Assembly (NCBI GenBank): GCA_016215705.1
Contig: JACRIR010000200.1
Location: 1-8,569 of the forward strand
Reading direction: 5' to 3'
Length of the DNA stretch: 8,569 bases
DNA from: Candidatus Poribacteria bacterium
GTDB lineage: Bacteria; Abyssobacteria; SURF-5
In this document: piece after piece, positions 1 to 7,884 of the stretch
How positions within the stretch are numbered: the first letter of the stretch is position 1
Layout of the letters: the number at the start of each line of letters is the position of its first letter
Notes under the pieces: model-generated
Database searches by the model: none
The model's input: the letters and a program-made list of their open reading frames with translations, nothing else
Told to the model about the DNA's origin: nothing
Translations under genes and position numbers: made by a program

Positions 1-1929
1 CGAGAAAAGGATGCTGCTGAGCATTCCTTTGACGGCAAGGTCGATGACTACGGCAGTCACGTAGGCATAGCCTGTGAGGTTGACTTTGACGGGCTCGTCC
101 TTGAAGTTCTTCTCGATGAATCGCCCGATCCGGTCCGCCAGCCTTTTTGCTATGACTGTATGGTCGTCCTTGAGCGTGATGGTGATGTTCGCCTGGCGAT
201 ACTCGTAGTCCACGACCTCGTCGAAATCGTCGGGGTCGCCGGACAGAGAGTAAAGGAGCAGATATTGCGCGATCGCTTCTCTGCTGTCGGGAACGGTATT
301 GAACTCCTCGCGGTCCTCATTCATCACCTTGTTCATTCGCTTTATATAGTCGCCTATGGAGATTGAACCGCCAACACCTTCGTCCTGTTCGGCCAGTTCT
401 TGAAGCTCGCATATTTTGTTGAGTACGGAAGGAGATTTGATGACGTCGGGTTCGTTGCCCTCGACGACCACGTTTACGGAAACCGTGCCGTTCATCTTTT
501 TGCAGATCAGATCATTGGAGATATACACCTCGCTTTCGTGCGGGAACATCTCGACCCAACTGTCGTTTGCGCGCACTTTGATGAACCCGACGGCCGAGAG
601 CAGAGCAAGCAGCGCGCCGAGAACAGAGATGGCCACGCGGCGGCGGTAGACCCAGCGGCCCATCGAGCCGAGCGCGAGCTCCGACCATTTCTGGACGGCG
701 CCGCCGACATCGATCATTCGTTTTGCAGGGGCGTTGGAATCCGGCATTTTCACGAGCATCAGACCCGCCGGGATAAAGGTCACCGAGAACAGGAGCGCGC
801 AGAGGATGCCCACGCCGGTGTAAATTCCGAAGGAACGAACGGGTATCAAGCTGGAGGTGTAACACGAGGCGAAACCGACGGCAGTCGTAAGCGAGCTCAT
901 GAGCACCGGGGGCCAGATGCCGACCATCGTTTGCAGAACGATGCCGGCCTTGTTGCGCGGAGCCTCAGGGCGGGACTCTTCGTGGTCTTCTGTAAGGGCG
1001 CAGCGCGCTGCGCCCCTGCGGGACTCATCGCGCGCTTCTTCGTAATAACGGTTCAGGATATGGATGCCATAGGCTGTGCCGATTGCGACCAGGATTACCG
1101 GAGTCATTGTAGTCAAGTCGTACAAGGGAACATTCATCAAGCTCATGATTCCGAGGCTCCAGATGGAGCCGGCGCACACGACCATCAGCGGGAGCACAAC
1201 TCCAAGCAGGGTCCCGAACGAAAAGTACAGGAGCAGGATGACGACGACAGCGACGATAGGCAGCATAACCTCCATGTTTCTGACCATGTAATCGACGAAA
1301 GTGGCCTCGAGCACAGGCTGGCCTGCGACATATATCACGTCTCCCCCGCCCTGCTCGCGCGCGACGATCTTTTTGATTTCGTTGTAAGCCTTTGTCTGTT
1401 TCTCCTGGCCGTCTTCGATCTTGGCGAGGATAAGGGCCGCCGTGCCGTCCTTCGAAACGAGCCAGCCGACGAACATGTCGTTGTCATAGATATTCTGTTT
1501 GAGGCGTTCGATCTCCTCGCGGCTCGTGGGGATTTCATCCATCAGAGGCACGACCTCGATGCCTTCCTCTGTGCCGACAATGTTATCCATCGTGCTGATG
1601 CTCTTTACGTCGTCCTCGCGCTCGGCCATGACGTAGGGCGCCTGCGAGATTTCCGCCGTCATCCGTTTGATTTTGGCGAGAGACAGGGGATTGAAGATGC
1701 CGTCGGGGCCATCGTTGAAAACGGCGACTGCCAGCGACTCCTCGTAATTGAACGTCTCACGCATGAGGTCTTCATACTCGACCGCCGGATGTCCATCGGG
1801 GAGATAGACGTCCACATCGGTCTCTATTCTCAGCTTCGGGAGTTGGAGCGCAAAGAAAAGGGTAACCATGAGACTCACGAGGATGGTGAGTTTGGGATGG
1901 CGAATGAATATTTGGAATAGCGGTTTCAT
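1..1929 (-). CDS. RND superfamily (MMPL/HpnN-type) exporter, C-terminus cut by window edge
   Basis: Integral inner-membrane exporter of the proton-driven RND superfamily (MMPL-like, COG1033 type); the substrate cannot be read from the sequence. 643 codons are open from an ATG at 1929 to the left edge without a stop. Residues 12-30 form the first membrane helix, 31-220 a large extracytoplasmic domain, 223-300 two to three further helices ending in the GTAYGIHILNRYYEE motif typical of the family, and 340-393 more helices including the SSLTTAVGFAS motif. A second repeat half begins with a helix near 431-450, followed by a second large periplasmic domain. Full-length relatives are usually about 750-880 residues, so the last helices lie outside the window. 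The start overlaps the upstream synthetase stop as ATGA, so translation is probably coupled. An in-frame insertion sits at residues 305-320 (see the repeat at 970-1029). A long opposite-strand open frame covers this gene but has no recognisable protein features. Family confidence is high; substrate is unknown. Confidence 0.93.
   Translation of the reverse strand, partial: MKPLFQIFIRHPKLTILVSLMVTLFFALQLPKLRIETDVDVYLPDGHPAVEYEDLMRETFNYEESLAVAVFNDGPDGIFNPLSLAKIKRMTAEISQAPYVMAEREDDVKSISTMDNIVGTEEGIEVVPLMDEIPTSREEIERLKQNIYDNDMFVGWLVSKDGTAALILAKIEDGQEKQTKAYNEIKKIVAREQGGGDVIYVAGQPVLEATFVDYMVRNMEVMLPIVAVVVILLLYFSFGTLLGVVLPLMVVCAGSIWSLGIMSLMNVPLYDLTTMTPVILVAIGTAYGIHILNRYYEEARDESRRGAARCALTEDHEESRPEAPRNKAGIVLQTMVGIWPPVLMSSLTTAVGFASCYTSSLIPVRSFGIYTGVGILCALLFSVTFIPAGLMLVKMPDSNAPAKRMIDVGGAVQKWSELALGSMGRWVYRRRVAISVLGALLALLSAVGFIKVRANDSWVEMFPHESEVYISNDLICKKMNGTVSVNVVVEGNEPDVIKSPSVLNKICELQELAEQDEGVGGSISIGDYIKRMNKVMNEDREEFNTVPDSREAIAQYLLLYSLSGDPDDFDEVVDYEYRQANITITLKDDHTVIAKRLADRIGRFIEKNFKDEPVKVNLTGYAYVTAVVIDLAVKGMLSSILFS
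970..1029. repeat. Palindromic element inside the RND exporter gene, flanked by 12-bp direct repeats
   Basis: Positions 996-1015 are a perfect 20-bp palindrome (GGGCGCAGCGCGCTGCGCCC). It lies between two 12-bp direct repeats, GCGGGACTCTTC (970-981) and GCGGGACTCATC (1018-1029), which differ at one base. The repeats are 48 bp apart, exactly 16 codons, so the exporter frame is kept; the palindrome encodes roughly R305-L312 and the direct repeats encode DESR and EESR. The same core, with a CCCCTAC-like right flank, recurs at 4960 and 6640. Confidence 0.75.
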
Positions 1930-3335
1930 CGTCGTCGATGCTCGGCGTAGGAGCACAGGGCTTTCATTGCGCGGGCGCACGTTTCGGGCGACTCGAAGAA
2001 CGGGATTTCGCCGCGTTTGAGTATCTCATACATCGCTGTCTCTTTATATTCGCGCATCGCGAACGTGATGACGGGTTTCTTATATTTGCGGGGGATATCG
2101 GCAATCATCGAGCAGGCCTCAACAAGTCCTTTCATGGACTCGGGAGAAGACGTTCGATGGAAACCGCCATACGGAGGCATAATTACAATACCGTCGATGT
2201 AGTCTTGTTTTGCGAGCACTTCGATGGCGGCGGCGTAGTCGACGTGGCTCTTGCGCGCGATCAGGTCGACCGGGTTCAGGGGCTGAGGCGAGAACTCGCG
2301 TACGTGCTGAAGGATAGCCCCCTGGGTTTCCTTGTCCAGGAGAGGGATTTCGAGGCCGATCTTCGCACATGCTTCCGCAGTCACAACGCAGAATCCTCCG
2401 CCTCCGGAGGCGATGGCGATACGGTTTCCGGACGGAAGCGGTTGATGCGCGAGCGCCTCGGCGAAGTCGAACATCTCGAGCATGTGGTCACAAACAAGAA
2501 CGCCCGCCTGCTTGCATGCGGCATCGAAAAGATGCGTGCTTCCCGTGAGCGAAGCCGTGTGGCTTGCCGCTGCGCGCGCGCCTGCCTCCGTGTGTCCCAT
2601 CTTATAAGCAAGCACAGGCTTCCTTGCCGTGGCTTTTCGCGCGACTTCAAGGAATCGCCTGCCATCTTTGACGCCTTCGAGGTAGAGCGCTACGACCTTG
2701 GTGTCTTCGTCGTCAGCCAGGTAATCGAGGTAGTCGCACACATCGAGGCTTGCCTGATTACCGGAGCTTACGAACTTGGCAAAACCATATCCCTTCGCCT
2801 GCGAGACATCAAAGAGGTAATCTCCCATTGTTCCGCTCTGAGAGACAAAGGCGGTGGGGCCTGGTTTGACGACATTCCAGAAGCAGAGATTCAAGCGGGC
2901 GGCCGAAGTCCACATGCCCATACAATTGGGCCCGACGAAGCGGATGCCGCTTTCACGTGAGAGGCGCGTCAGTTCTCGTTGAAGCTCGGCGCCTTGCGGC
3001 CCGATCTCGGCAAAGCCGGCCGTGATAATGACGGCTCCGCCGACTTTTTTCTCCACGCACTGTCGGAAAGCTTCGAGGGCTTGAGCCGCATTGACCACAA
3101 TGACTGCCAGATCAATCGGGCCGGGCACGTCGAGGACGCTCTGATATGCCTTGACGCCCTGTATTACGTCCTCTTTCGGATTGATGGGATACACCTCGCC
3201 CCGGAACTGGCTCCAATTCAATACGCAAAAAAGCGTACTATGCCCCCAACGCTCGGGGTTATTCGACGCGCCCACAATCGCGACCGACCGCGGGCGAAAA
3301 ATGGGGTCCAATTGTTCCTTGATGGTTCGTGTCAT
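1926..3335 (-). CDS. ADP-forming acetate/acyl-CoA synthetase, alpha-subunit-like
   Basis: Alpha-type subunit of the NDP-forming acyl-CoA synthetase family, which interconverts acyl-CoA + ADP + Pi and acid + ATP + CoA in the cytoplasm. With the start at 3335 it has 469 residues, close to stand-alone alpha subunits (about 460). An N-terminal CoA-binding Rossmann domain carries SVAIVGASNNP (about 17-27); GPNCMG lies at 135-140 and VSQSG at 164-168 in the succinyl-CoA-ligase-like domain; His259 in ASHTAS matches the phosphorylated His of the family (His257 in the Pyrococcus alpha subunit, from memory). A third ligase-CoA domain follows. No ATP-grasp beta subunit is fused or adjacent. A longer start at 3359 is possible but lacks a ribosome site, whereas the 3335 ATG has GGAG 10 nt upstream and begins just before the conserved LDPIF segment. 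The gene ends with a 4-bp overlap with the RND exporter. The acyl substrate is unknown. Confidence 0.92.
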   Translation of the reverse strand: MTRTIKEQLDPIFRPRSVAIVGASNNPERWGHSTLFCVLNWSQFRGEVYPINPKEDVIQGVKAYQSVLDVPGPIDLAVIVVNAAQALEAFRQCVEKKVGGAVIITAGFAEIGPQGAELQRELTRLSRESGIRFVGPNCMGMWTSAARLNLCFWNVVKPGPTAFVSQSGTMGDYLFDVSQAKGYGFAKFVSSGNQASLDVCDYLDYLADDEDTKVVALYLEGVKDGRRFLEVARKATARKPVLAYKMGHTEAGARAAASHTASLTGSTHLFDAACKQAGVLVCDHMLEMFDFAEALAHQPLPSGNRIAIASGGGGFCVVTAEACAKIGLEIPLLDKETQGAILQHVREFSPQPLNPVDLIARKSHVDYAAAIEVLAKQDYIDGIVIMPPYGGFHRTSSPESMKGLVEACSMIADIPRKYKKPVITFAMREYKETAMYEILKRGEIPFFESPETCARAMKALCSYAEHRRR

Positions 3336-3394
3336 AAAATGAAAACTCCACAGATGCATGGGAAACGGAAGAGAGGGAGAGCAAGTTGACTGCT

Positions 3395-3651: not shown

Positions 3652-3696
3652 AAGAGCTGCAAGAGGCAAACATCAGTATTTCTTAAGGAGCATATG

Positions 3697-4506
3697 ATGA
3701 ACAGGCAAGAGATCATCGGGCTGACGGGGGAATTTGTCAGGAGGGGGCAGGGGAATTCCATCGCCGAGTTGGATGGGATGAAGATATACGAGGATAAACC
3801 GCTGGTGGCTTTTGCGTCAGCACGGGACCCGTTGTATGCAAAGTTGAGGGACGAGGGCATAATCGGGCCGCACCATTTGATGCCACAGGATTGGGTTGAA
3901 AACGCGAAGACGGTGGTTGTCTACTTCCTGCCGTTCACGAAGGAAGTGATCGAGAGCAACTATCCCGAAGGGATATCGTCGAAGGAGTGGTACCTCAGCC
4001 GCTACTACGGCGAGGATTTCAATAACGCCGTGAGAGATCACATTGCCGGAGTCTTGCAGAAAGCCGGACACAATGCGGTCGCGCCTTCGCGGTCAGGCAA
4101 GTTCGAGATGCAGAACGTCACGAGCAACTGGTCGGAGCGTCATTCGGCTTATATTGCCGGGATGGGCAGCTTCTGTCTTTCGTATTCGTTCATTTCGGAG
4201 AAAGGATGCGCGGGACGTTACGGCACGGTGGTGACCGATCTGGAGATCGAACCGAGCTCGCGCACGAAGGGCCTCAGAGACAACTGCTTGTACGACGCGA
4301 AAGGCACGTGCGGGCTCTGCATTTCGAGATGTCCGGCAGGAGCGATCACACCCGAGAAGAAGGATCACTGGAAGTGCCAGGAATACCTTGTCACGAAGGT
4401 GATGGCGGAGTACGTGCCGAGGTTCAATGTAGTGGCCGGCGGCTGCGGCAAGTGCCAGACCAAGGTTCCGTGTTCGCGGAAGAAGCCGACGAAAAGCGAT
4501 CTGTGA
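3697..4506 (+). CDS. QueG-like (epoxyqueuosine reductase-related) protein with two [4Fe-4S] clusters
   Basis: Predicted cytoplasmic Fe-S oxidoreductase related to epoxyqueuosine reductase QueG and the reductive-dehalogenase fold; the substrate is uncertain. The start is the second of two consecutive ATGs, six nt after a strong AAGGAG (3685-3690), giving 269 residues; an in-frame ATG at 3625 lacks such a site. The segment from about 134 to 186 (SGKFEMQN...ER...AGMG...GRYGTVVTDLEIEP) resembles the QueG core. Cys197, 205, 208 and 212 (C-x7-C-x2-C-x3-CP) and Cys227, 250, 253 and 259 fit two [4Fe-4S] clusters. Typical QueG is about 310-390 residues with a distinctive N-terminal domain and, in many cases, C-terminal HEAT repeats; this protein is shorter and ends just after the second cluster. 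No other queuosine gene lies nearby, so it may be a paralogue with another electron-transfer role. The next gene follows after 53 bp in the same direction. Confidence 0.8.
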   Translation: MNRQEIIGLTGEFVRRGQGNSIAELDGMKIYEDKPLVAFASARDPLYAKLRDEGIIGPHHLMPQDWVENAKTVVVYFLPFTKEVIESNYPEGISSKEWYLSRYYGEDFNNAVRDHIAGVLQKAGHNAVAPSRSGKFEMQNVTSNWSERHSAYIAGMGSFCLSYSFISEKGCAGRYGTVVTDLEIEPSSRTKGLRDNCLYDAKGTCGLCISRCPAGAITPEKKDHWKCQEYLVTKVMAEYVPRFNVVAGGCGKCQTKVPCSRKKPTKSDL

Positions 4507-4559: not shown

Positions 4560-6614
4560 ATGATGGAAGCTAAGACCGTGGTGCGGCGGGTTGCGCCGTA
4601 TGTGGCGCTTTTGATTCTCACCGCAGTGGTCTATGCGAACACGTTATCCAACCAATTCGTTTGGGATGACAGGATACTCATAGTTGATAATCACCTGATC
4701 GAGAACTGGCGGAATCTGCCAAGCTTCTTTTCCCGGTCGTTCTTTGAGCTCGAAGATGAAGGAATGCTGCAGGGCGGATACTATCGCCCGTTCATTCTGC
4801 TTACGTATGTGGCCGATTATGCGATATGGGGATTGCGCGCGGTTGGTTACCACCTTACCAATATACTGACGCATTCACTGAACGTCCTGCTTTTCTTTCA
4901 TTTTTTCCGCAGTCTGACACAGAATCACAATGCGAGAAACGGGCCAGCATTAGCCGCAGGGGCACAGTGCGCCACACCCCTACAAGCGACTTTGCATCAA
5001 GATGACGGGTGCGGAACAGCCTCTGCGAGTTTCTTTGGCGCGCTTCTTTATGCTGTGAGCCCGGTGCATACCAACGCAGTCACCTATATTACCGGACGAA
5101 CGGATTTGTTCGCGACGTTCTTCTTCTTATTGAGCCTGATGTCATATCGCGTATTTAGTCGCTCGTCGGAAAGACGAAGTCTCTTGCACCTGTTCGGCTC
5201 ACTCGTCTTCTTCTCTCTATCTCTCTTGTGCAAGGAGAGCACTGTGATACTGCCGCTGATTGTGGTTTTGTACGACGTTTGCTTTGTTGGTCGATTCAAG
5301 AAAGGCATCGCGTGGCGAGCAGTCGCGCCTTACGTCCCCTACGCTTTGATTCTTGCGGGATACTTCTTCATAAGGGGTCGTGTGGTTCATTTGGAAGCCG
5401 GCTTCGCGATCAATTCAGTTTCGGACATGACATATAGAATAGCAACAATCATCAAGAGCGTGGTCCTTTATTGGAGGCTGCTGCTTTTTCCGGTGGGTCT
5501 CAGTTTTGAACGCAGTGTCGAGGTGGTTCATTCGCTTGCATCACCGATATTTATGCCGTATCTTTTGGTATTCTGCGCCTCGCTGGTATTACTCGTTCGC
5601 TGGTGGGGACTTGATAAGCAGTTGTTTTTCTGCCTGATGTGGTTCTTCATAGGCTTTGCGCCCGTTTCAAATCTCCTGCCCATATTTCCTTCGATAATAG
5701 CGACGCATCATTATGCGGCTGAGCAGCTCATGTATCTTCCATCGATGGGGCTGTTTGTTCTGGCGGGTTATTTCATCTCGACGGCGTATGGCCGCATAGA
5801 GAATGATGAGAAGCGCTTGTTCAGAAAGCGGCAGTCAGTGGTGTTGGTCTTCCTGGTTGCGCTGACTTTCTTTGCCTTGACCATACGACGGAACAGGGAC
5901 TGGAAGGACGAGAAGACGTTTTACGAGCGAACGTTGGCGGCGAATCCGACAAGCGTGCGCATTATGAACAATTTGGGGATTGTGTATAAAGAACAGAAAC
6001 GATACAGCCGCGCGCTGGAGCTTTTTGAATCCGCCGTCAAGCTGCAGTCCGATTTCGTGAGTGCGTATAACAATATCGCGTCGGTATATCAAGATCTTGG
6101 TTCCAGCGAGCGCGCTGAGGGTTATTACCGGAAGGCCGTCGGGATCGACGAGAAGAATCTCCGCGCCCACTTTGAGCTTGCCAAGATTCTCGAGGAGTCG
6201 GGCCGGCTTTCGGAGTCGGAGACGCATCTCTCCGCGTTGACGAAGTGGTATCCGGCATTTTCGGCGGGCCATCACGAAATGGGGCGTGTGCTCATGGCGG
6301 AGGGGAGATATCGCGACGCCATCGAGGAGTTTCAGAAAGCGCTCGAGGGATCGCCCAATCCCGATGTGGTTCTGAACTCGATCGGGATAGCCTACGCAAG
6401 ACAAGGAGACTACGGACGGGCCGAGCAGAGTTTCAGGCTGGCACTCGGGGCAAATCCGGAGTCATATCAGGCGCACGTGAATCTGGGAAGCGTTTATCTT
6501 GAACAAGGTTTCAAGGATAGGGCACTTGAGGAGTATGAGCGCGCATTGCGTATCCGGCCCGATTTGACGGGGATACAAGATCGCGTGAGGGGATTGAGGG
6601 CCCGGGAAGAATAG
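4560..6614 (+). CDS. TMTC-like multi-spanning membrane protein with six C-terminal TPRs
   Basis: Polytopic membrane protein of 684 residues. Residues about 10-440 contain roughly nine to eleven hydrophobic helices and carry GT-C glycosyltransferase-like signatures shared with the TMTC O-mannosyltransferase family: an acidic FVWDDR motif after the first helix (Asp36, Asp37), YYRPF at 74-78, and SPVHTNAVTYITGRTDL at 167-183. Residues 465-668 are six TPRs spaced exactly 34 residues apart with no gaps (equivalent positions 472, 506, 540, 574, 608 and 642), likely a protein-binding or acceptor-presenting solenoid. The inferred role is transfer of a sugar from a lipid carrier to an exported protein, or a structural role; neither is proven. 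GGGAG lies at 4554-4558, so the second ATG (4563) is slightly better spaced than the first. Residues about 121-153 are a low-complexity insertion between helices that contains a copy of the dispersed palindromic repeat. The gene may be co-transcribed with the QueG-like gene. Confidence 0.85.
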   Translation: MMEAKTVVRRVAPYVALLILTAVVYANTLSNQFVWDDRILIVDNHLIENWRNLPSFFSRSFFELEDEGMLQGGYYRPFILLTYVADYAIWGLRAVGYHLTNILTHSLNVLLFFHFFRSLTQNHNARNGPALAAGAQCATPLQATLHQDDGCGTASASFFGALLYAVSPVHTNAVTYITGRTDLFATFFFLLSLMSYRVFSRSSERRSLLHLFGSLVFFSLSLLCKESTVILPLIVVLYDVCFVGRFKKGIAWRAVAPYVPYALILAGYFFIRGRVVHLEAGFAINSVSDMTYRIATIIKSVVLYWRLLLFPVGLSFERSVEVVHSLASPIFMPYLLVFCASLVLLVRWWGLDKQLFFCLMWFFIGFAPVSNLLPIFPSIIATHHYAAEQLMYLPSMGLFVLAGYFISTAYGRIENDEKRLFRKRQSVVLVFLVALTFFALTIRRNRDWKDEKTFYERTLAANPTSVRIMNNLGIVYKEQKRYSRALELFESAVKLQSDFVSAYNNIASVYQDLGSSERAEGYYRKAVGIDEKNLRAHFELAKILEESGRLSESETHLSALTKWYPAFSAGHHEMGRVLMAEGRYRDAIEEFQKALEGSPNPDVVLNSIGIAYARQGDYGRAEQSFRLALGANPESYQAHVNLGSVYLEQGFKDRALEEYERALRIRPDLTGIQDRVRGLRAREE
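4960..4985. repeat. Degenerate copy of the dispersed palindromic repeat inside the TPR protein gene
   Basis: GGGCACAGTGCGCCACACCC (4960-4979) followed by CCTACAAG aligns without gaps to the repeats at 996 and 6640 and shares the CCCCTAC right flank, but its palindrome has decayed. It encodes about G134-P140 within a Cys/Gly/Ala/Gln-rich loop between two membrane helices. Confidence 0.55.
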
Positions 6615-6837: not shown

Positions 6838-7884
6838 TCACGGTTCAACGAAGATGCAGCAGGGAGGGCCGTCGATGATTTCGCCAATGATGGCGGCTGC
6901 TTCGACGCCTGCCTGTTTGAGGGTGGAGAGCATCTGGTCGGCCTTTTCGTGAGAGACGGCAATGAGCAGGCCGCCGGAGGTTTGCGCGTCGCACAATGCC
7001 AGGCGCATCGGTTCCCCCACGTCGTTATGCCATTTTGCAAAGCCGTCGGCGTACGCTTTGTTGGCTCGGCTGCCGCCCGGCACGCAGTCTTCTTTGATCA
7101 GTCCCCACACTTCCTCTATGATAGGGACGCTCGAGGCGCGCACTCGAGCGGCGACCCGTGAGCCTGCGACCATTTCCTCGAGGTGGCCCATGAGCCCGAA
7201 GCCGGTGACATCGGTGCATGCATGTGCGCCCACTTCGACCATCACATGGGATGCCCGCCTGTTCAGTGTCGCCATAAGGTGAATCACTTTTTCCGCGGTT
7301 TCCCGGGTGACCATCCGCGCTTTAATGCCGGTTGTGATGATGCCGATGCCAAGCGGTTTGGTAAGGATGAGGACATCGCCGGGTCGCGCGGTCGAGTTCC
7401 TGACGACGCGGTCGGGGGCCACGAGACCGGTCACGCACAACCCGTACTTGGGTTCCTCATCGACGACCGTGTGTCCGCCCGCTATGCTTATGCCCGCTTC
7501 AGCAGCCTTGTTCATTCCTCCCTTCAGGATTTCGGCGAGAAGCGAGAGCGGAAACTTCTTCATGGGAAAGCCGACTATGTTGAGGGCGAAAAGGGGGCGC
7601 GCGCCCATCGCATAGATGTCCGAGAGCGAATTGGCAGCCGCGATTTGGCCGAAGTGATAAGGATCGTCCACGATTGGCGTGAAGTAGTCCACCGTTTGCA
7701 CTATGGCGGTATCGTCGCTAAGACGGAATACGGCCGCATCGTCAGAGGTGTCGGCTCCGACGATTATTCGCGGATCAGTTACGGGTGGGAGCAAGCGCAG
7801 AACCTGCGCCAGGTCGCTTTGAGCGGCCTTACACGCTCACCCGCCGCTGCTTGTAAGAGTTGTGAGACGGACGTTGTTTTCCAT
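6838..7884 (-). CDS. selD: Selenide, water dikinase (selenophosphate synthetase), itself a selenoprotein
   Basis: Makes selenophosphate from selenide and ATP, the selenium donor for selenocysteine and for 2-selenouridine in tRNA. The frame runs from an ATG at 7884 (an upstream in-frame stop lies nine codons before it) to 6838 and gives 348 residues, the usual SelD length, if the TGA at 7837-7839 is read as Sec16. The N-terminus then reads LTSSGG-Sec-ACK, matching the catalytic GCGCK/GUGCK motif with the essential Lys at 19. ATP/Mg-binding motifs follow: DDAAVF (48-53), TVDYFTPIVDDP (64-75), AAANSLSDIYAMG (82-94), GGHT plus DEEPKYG (136-148), TDVTGFGLMGH (204-214) and DAQTSGG (269-275). Starting after the TGA, for example at the TTG at 7794, would remove the catalytic loop. 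The ribosome site is weak (GAAAG). The upstream isomerase-like gene is on the same strand, 100 bp away. Confidence 0.95.
7795..7839 (-). promoter_or_regulatory. Selenocysteine TGA codon and bacterial SECIS-like hairpin in selD
   Basis: The recoded TGA occupies 7839-7837. Downstream, GCGCAG (7809-7804) and CTGCGC (7800-7795) form a perfect six-bp stem capped by GUU, 28-42 nt after the TGA. This fits the known bacterial SECIS geometry (small apical loop with a G at its start, about 16-37 nt from the UGA) and resembles the GCAGGUCUGC apex of E. coli fdhF (recalled from memory). A second perfect stem, TGAGCG (7839-7834) with CGCTCA (7825-7820), starts on the TGA itself. A competing ACCTG/CAGGT pairing also exists. 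Confidence 0.7.

Follow-up and report, generated by a model that had tools for sequence, protein, structure and literature searches.

Does the TGA that interrupts the selD frame at this locus end the gene, or does it encode selenocysteine (Sec)? In the window, by which we mean the whole 8,569-nucleotide stretch of DNA analysed, the plus-strand TCA at 7837-7839 is a minus-strand TGA and forms codon 16 of a 348-codon selD gene for selenophosphate synthetase (6838-7884, minus strand; ATG at 7884-7882, stop TGA at 6840-6838). Read from the ATG, the frame gives MENNVRLTTLTSSGG-TGA-ACKAAQSDLAQVL..., in which Sec (U) is followed by ACKAAQ. The product lies over the NCBIfam TIGR00476 selD equivalog cut-off in a full-length match (397 bits versus 125) as well as the PRK00943 equivalog cut-off (370 bits versus 299); among solved structures, selenide, water dikinases are the closest to it. 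When the solved SelD 3u0o is aligned, its Cys-x-Cys-Lys falls on Sec16-Ala-Cys-Lys19. The N-terminal loop of the family, with a catalytic Cys or Sec and a lysine three residues later, is therefore present, with the TGA in the Cys/Sec column and the conserved Lys19 encoded by AAG at 7828-7830 (minus strand).

A mechanical ORF call that respects stops places the gene at 6838-7794 (minus strand), with a TTG start at 7794, and thereby drops the first 30 residues including the Sec/Lys loop. Since this frame stays open for 318 codons past the TGA and has its own start, it could be argued that translation really begins there and yields an N-terminally truncated SelD or marks a pseudogene. We regard this as highly improbable: the 15 codons upstream of the TGA are conserved as protein from the ATG across genera, the truncation would remove both Lys19 and the substrate loop, and this is the only selD copy in a genome that has selA, selB, selC, and other Sec genes. 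In the two genomes of the same family, the 15-codon stretch reads MEDKVRLTSLTKSGG and MEDKIRLTALTTSGG, and its changes are synonymous and conservative. The gene call is thus corrected to a selD of 348 aa, not 318.

The codon itself is widely retained. Only two of the genomes compared share a family with the window's genome (G001 and G002), and both have TGA at the same codon (75 and 79% identity). SelD matches at E <= 1e-70 occurred in 158 of 366 genomes from across the domain, most of them, among the matches listed, with exactly one TGA. Over 151 SelD sequences, the codon-16 site is TGA in 129, TGC in 13, and TGT in 9, a pattern not due to chance, so that an in-frame UGA stands at the Cys column of homologues and is kept in independent genomes. 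The Cys-form SelDs in these genomes are mostly, among those listed, long fusions with open frames of >700 aa, and their length suggests that they are probably of the oxidoreductase-SelD type described in PMC4561486. The genome (5.47 Mb, 92% complete) is a draft of 270 contigs, and 22 of the 151 sequences do carry Cys, which would fit a sequencing or assembly error for TGC or TGT in the gene of a Cys enzyme. The probability of such an error is nevertheless negligible, because both same-family genomes, and most others, retain TGA at this codon; moreover, a SECIS-like hairpin is retained in the downstream codons but is missing from Cys genes. As judged from these alignments, conservation refutes the error reading.

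A preliminary description had placed an in-frame TGA at the catalytic Cys/Sec column of SelD, on which the frame, the alignment to 3u0o, and the 151-sequence comparison now agree. The essential lysine three residues past the TGA and the total length of 348, both given there, correspond to Lys19 and the 348 codons of the frame, and the routine gene call that it expected to start past the TGA and lose the loop is the 318-aa call from the TTG. The alignment of N termini that it proposed, with Sec- and Cys-containing SelDs, puts the TGA in the Cys/Sec column, and the sequencing error that it named as a danger is contradicted by retention of the codon in independent genomes.

The genome also carries the genes expected of an organism that decodes UGA as Sec. 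The selA gene (C228:46088-47185, 485 bits) adjoins selB (C228:43728-45614, 371 bits), and a single tRNA-Sec gene is found at C59:13392-13486 (68 bits), with the anticodon TCA (UCA) assigned by ARAGORN; selA, selB, and tRNA-Sec thus occur together in one genome. A second match to the tRNA-Sec model, on C42, was rejected as a tRNA-Leu by ARAGORN. The selenoproteome was sampled by family, and at least two selenoprotein genes besides selD were recovered. One encodes the formate dehydrogenase alpha subunit (FdhA), with an in-frame TGA in the context DHCARL-TGA-H, and the other is an FlpD/FrhD-type gene with GADAVFVAG-TGA-LEGQCHF (L211:1594-1596 region, G000:C145), whose contig is rich in iron-sulfur proteins. 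NiFe(Se) hydrogenase matches were without a TGA. A search of the window's genome for mnmH/SelU found none, and selenophosphate therefore appears to serve selenoproteins in this organism. The lineage can be counted as Sec-decoding, with three selenoprotein genes or more.

These genes also bear on whether UGA could be read as an amino acid other than Sec, through general recoding or a suppressor. We found no support for this reading, and it is extremely unlikely: UGA terminates selD itself (6840-6838) as well as FdhA, a tRNA-Sec with anticodon UCA and SelB are both present, and the homologous residue elsewhere is only Cys. The preliminary description had taken the TGA to imply that the organism decodes UGA as Sec and had named the absence of selA, selB, or tRNA-Sec as evidence to the contrary; all three were found, together with the further selenoprotein genes. 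Its observation is confirmed in all testable details.

Insertion of Sec in bacteria calls for an RNA hairpin (bSECIS) past the UGA, and two candidate positions were considered in this gene. With the UGA counted as nt 1-3, the proximal hairpin H1 pairs nt 16-20 with nt 24-28, and the distal hairpin H2 pairs nt 31-36 with nt 40-45. The H1 site (7812-7824, minus strand; loop 17 nt past the UGA) has 3 of its 5 pairs left, and a shifted alternative, CGCU-CAA-AGCG (7825-7815), is possible. H2 (GCGCAG-GUU-CUGCGC, 7795-7809, minus strand) is complete, with 6 bp, pair probabilities of 0.94 to 0.99, a minimum free energy (MFE) of -8.0 kcal/mol, and a loop 33 nt past the UGA. As given in PMC13188914, a bSECIS has a loop of 3-9 nt, a stem of 4-16 bp, a G as first or second nucleotide of the loop, a distance of 16-37 nt from the UGA, and an MFE of at most -7.5. 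With its 3-nt GUU loop, its 6 bp, its 33-nt distance, and its MFE, H2 falls within these limits. Because H1 is broken, the distal H2 rather than the proximal H1 is most likely the bSECIS of this selD, and its position is a variant inside the published model (PMC13188914) and not beyond it. The FdhA hairpin of the same genome resembles that of selD in being a stem-loop just 3' of the UGA with G first in the loop, whereas it differs in having an 8-bp stem and a GGUCU loop 18 nt past the UGA. An Rfam scan of the window gave no match, and the region folded alone had an MFE z-score of only -0.3 to -2.0; in view of these weak single-sequence scores, we turned to a comparison with synonymous shuffles.

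In this comparison, each codon was replaced by a synonym drawn at the frequency with which the gene in question uses it, which removes the protein constraint (500 shuffles), and genes were split into classes by a Gln-Val-Leu (QVL) motif (residues 27-29 in the SelD encoded here), which 38 SelD-Sec genes possess. The pair counts below cover related sequences, and the null ignores the tree. In SelD-Sec genes without QVL, H1 had 359 of 455 pairs as against 264.4 +- 6.7 under the null, while H2 was at the null level (235 pairs versus 228.6 +- 7.4). In the 38 QVL genes, H2 reached 217 of 228 pairs (null 152.6 +- 5.6), and H1 was above the null as well (130 pairs versus 99.0 +- 4.6). The H2 stem is complete in 32 of the 38, where the shuffles gave a mean of 2.77 and a maximum of 7. 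The 23 genes fetched once the pattern was known, taken alone, have it complete in 18 (null mean 1.66). Cys-codon selD genes showed neither hairpin. Furthermore, pair 33-43 varies among G-C, C-G, U-A, and A-U with the residue after Leu, a compensatory change by which the distal hairpin appears to be kept beyond protein constraint. That Sec genes differ from Cys genes, and one class from the other, argues for functional hairpins.

Two alternative hairpin positions past the selD Sec codon are seen across L018, L047, L048, and 126 other SelD-Sec genes, and the distal position is tied to the Gln-Val-Leu protein motif. Tentatively, and with slightly less than even confidence, we suggest that the hairpin bound by SelB in SelD-Sec genes occupies either or both of two set positions (17 or 33 nt), and that in the window's lineage the proximal hairpin has been lost through decay while the distal one serves; a single SelB would then have to recognise hairpins at 18 nt (FdhA) and at 33 nt (SelD) within one cell. 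The two-position pattern could aid bSECIS prediction and tests of SelB spacing tolerance.

Overall, with nothing found that speaks directly against it, it is nearly certain that this is an ordinary bacterial selD in which residue 16 of the catalytic loop is selenocysteine, inserted via SelB and a hairpin, with a product that feeds SelA. SelB carrying Sec-tRNA(UCA) would bind an RNA hairpin a short way past the UGA (the 6-bp stem with a GUU loop at 7809-7795 is the likeliest candidate) and insert Sec instead of allowing termination. Full-length SelD, with Sec16 and Lys19 predicted to sit in its mobile selenium-binding loop, would then convert selenide and ATP to selenophosphate, from which SelA would form the Sec-tRNA needed for SelD as well as for formate dehydrogenase and FlpD/FrhD. 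Frame, codon position, conservation, machinery genes, and hairpin selection are read from sequence; from them we infer Sec incorporation, the catalytic role of the residue, and the dependence of SelD on its own product.

SelDs that are themselves selenoproteins belong to the most frequent selenoproteins of bacteria, and they were recognized decades ago. The window's SelD shares with Sec-containing bacterial SelD/SPS2 (TIGR00476) its length, the N-terminal Sec/Cys-x-x-Lys loop, the UGA in the Cys column, a downstream bSECIS-like hairpin, and selA-selB-selC in the genome; nothing is different in kind, although of the two hairpin positions it is the distal one that probably serves as its bSECIS. 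Cys SelDs (such as 3u0o and the Cys-type SelD domains fused to oxidoreductases) have the same family and loop motif, whereas they carry Cys for Sec and have no conserved hairpin past the codon. Sec-containing SelD is standard (PMC1794560, PMC13188914, PMC4561486); SelD has been called the second largest selenoprotein family of prokaryotes, and PMC4561486 covers the history of the residue at this site, whether Sec, Cys, or another. The title of Guimaraes et al. 1996, as cited in PMC8659212, raises a possible autoregulatory mechanism. That an enzyme activating selenium should itself contain selenium is familiar and widespread, and neither Sec-containing SelD nor the idea of self-dependence, in print in 1996, is novel. 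The interpretation in the preliminary description is therefore supported, while its novelty was overrated.

Another in-frame TGA of the same genome lies at L099:2798-2800 (G000:C77), in a 968-codon alpha subunit of DMSO-reductase type II (EbdA-like). The site reads GNK-TGA-Cys-GIRGWN, with Gly-Ser in place of the TGA-Cys pair in seven close homologues, and it differs from the nearest paralogue by three changes (GGC AGC to TGA TGC). The would-be residue falls outside any Cys column, and a bSECIS-like hairpin is absent downstream; the TGA may be a nonsense mutation or, alternatively, part of an unusual Sec-Cys site. Elsewhere in the window, 1926-3359 (minus strand) encodes a protein of the ADP-forming acetate-CoA ligase alpha type (438 bits, short of the curated 567); the window has no gene for a beta subunit. 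An iron-sulfur protein at 3694-4506 (plus strand) is weakly similar to QueG (38 bits) and to reductive dehalogenases (27 bits), each time below the cut-off, and 4560-6614 (plus strand) encodes a large hydrophobic protein of 684 aa with a TPR-repeat C-terminal part.
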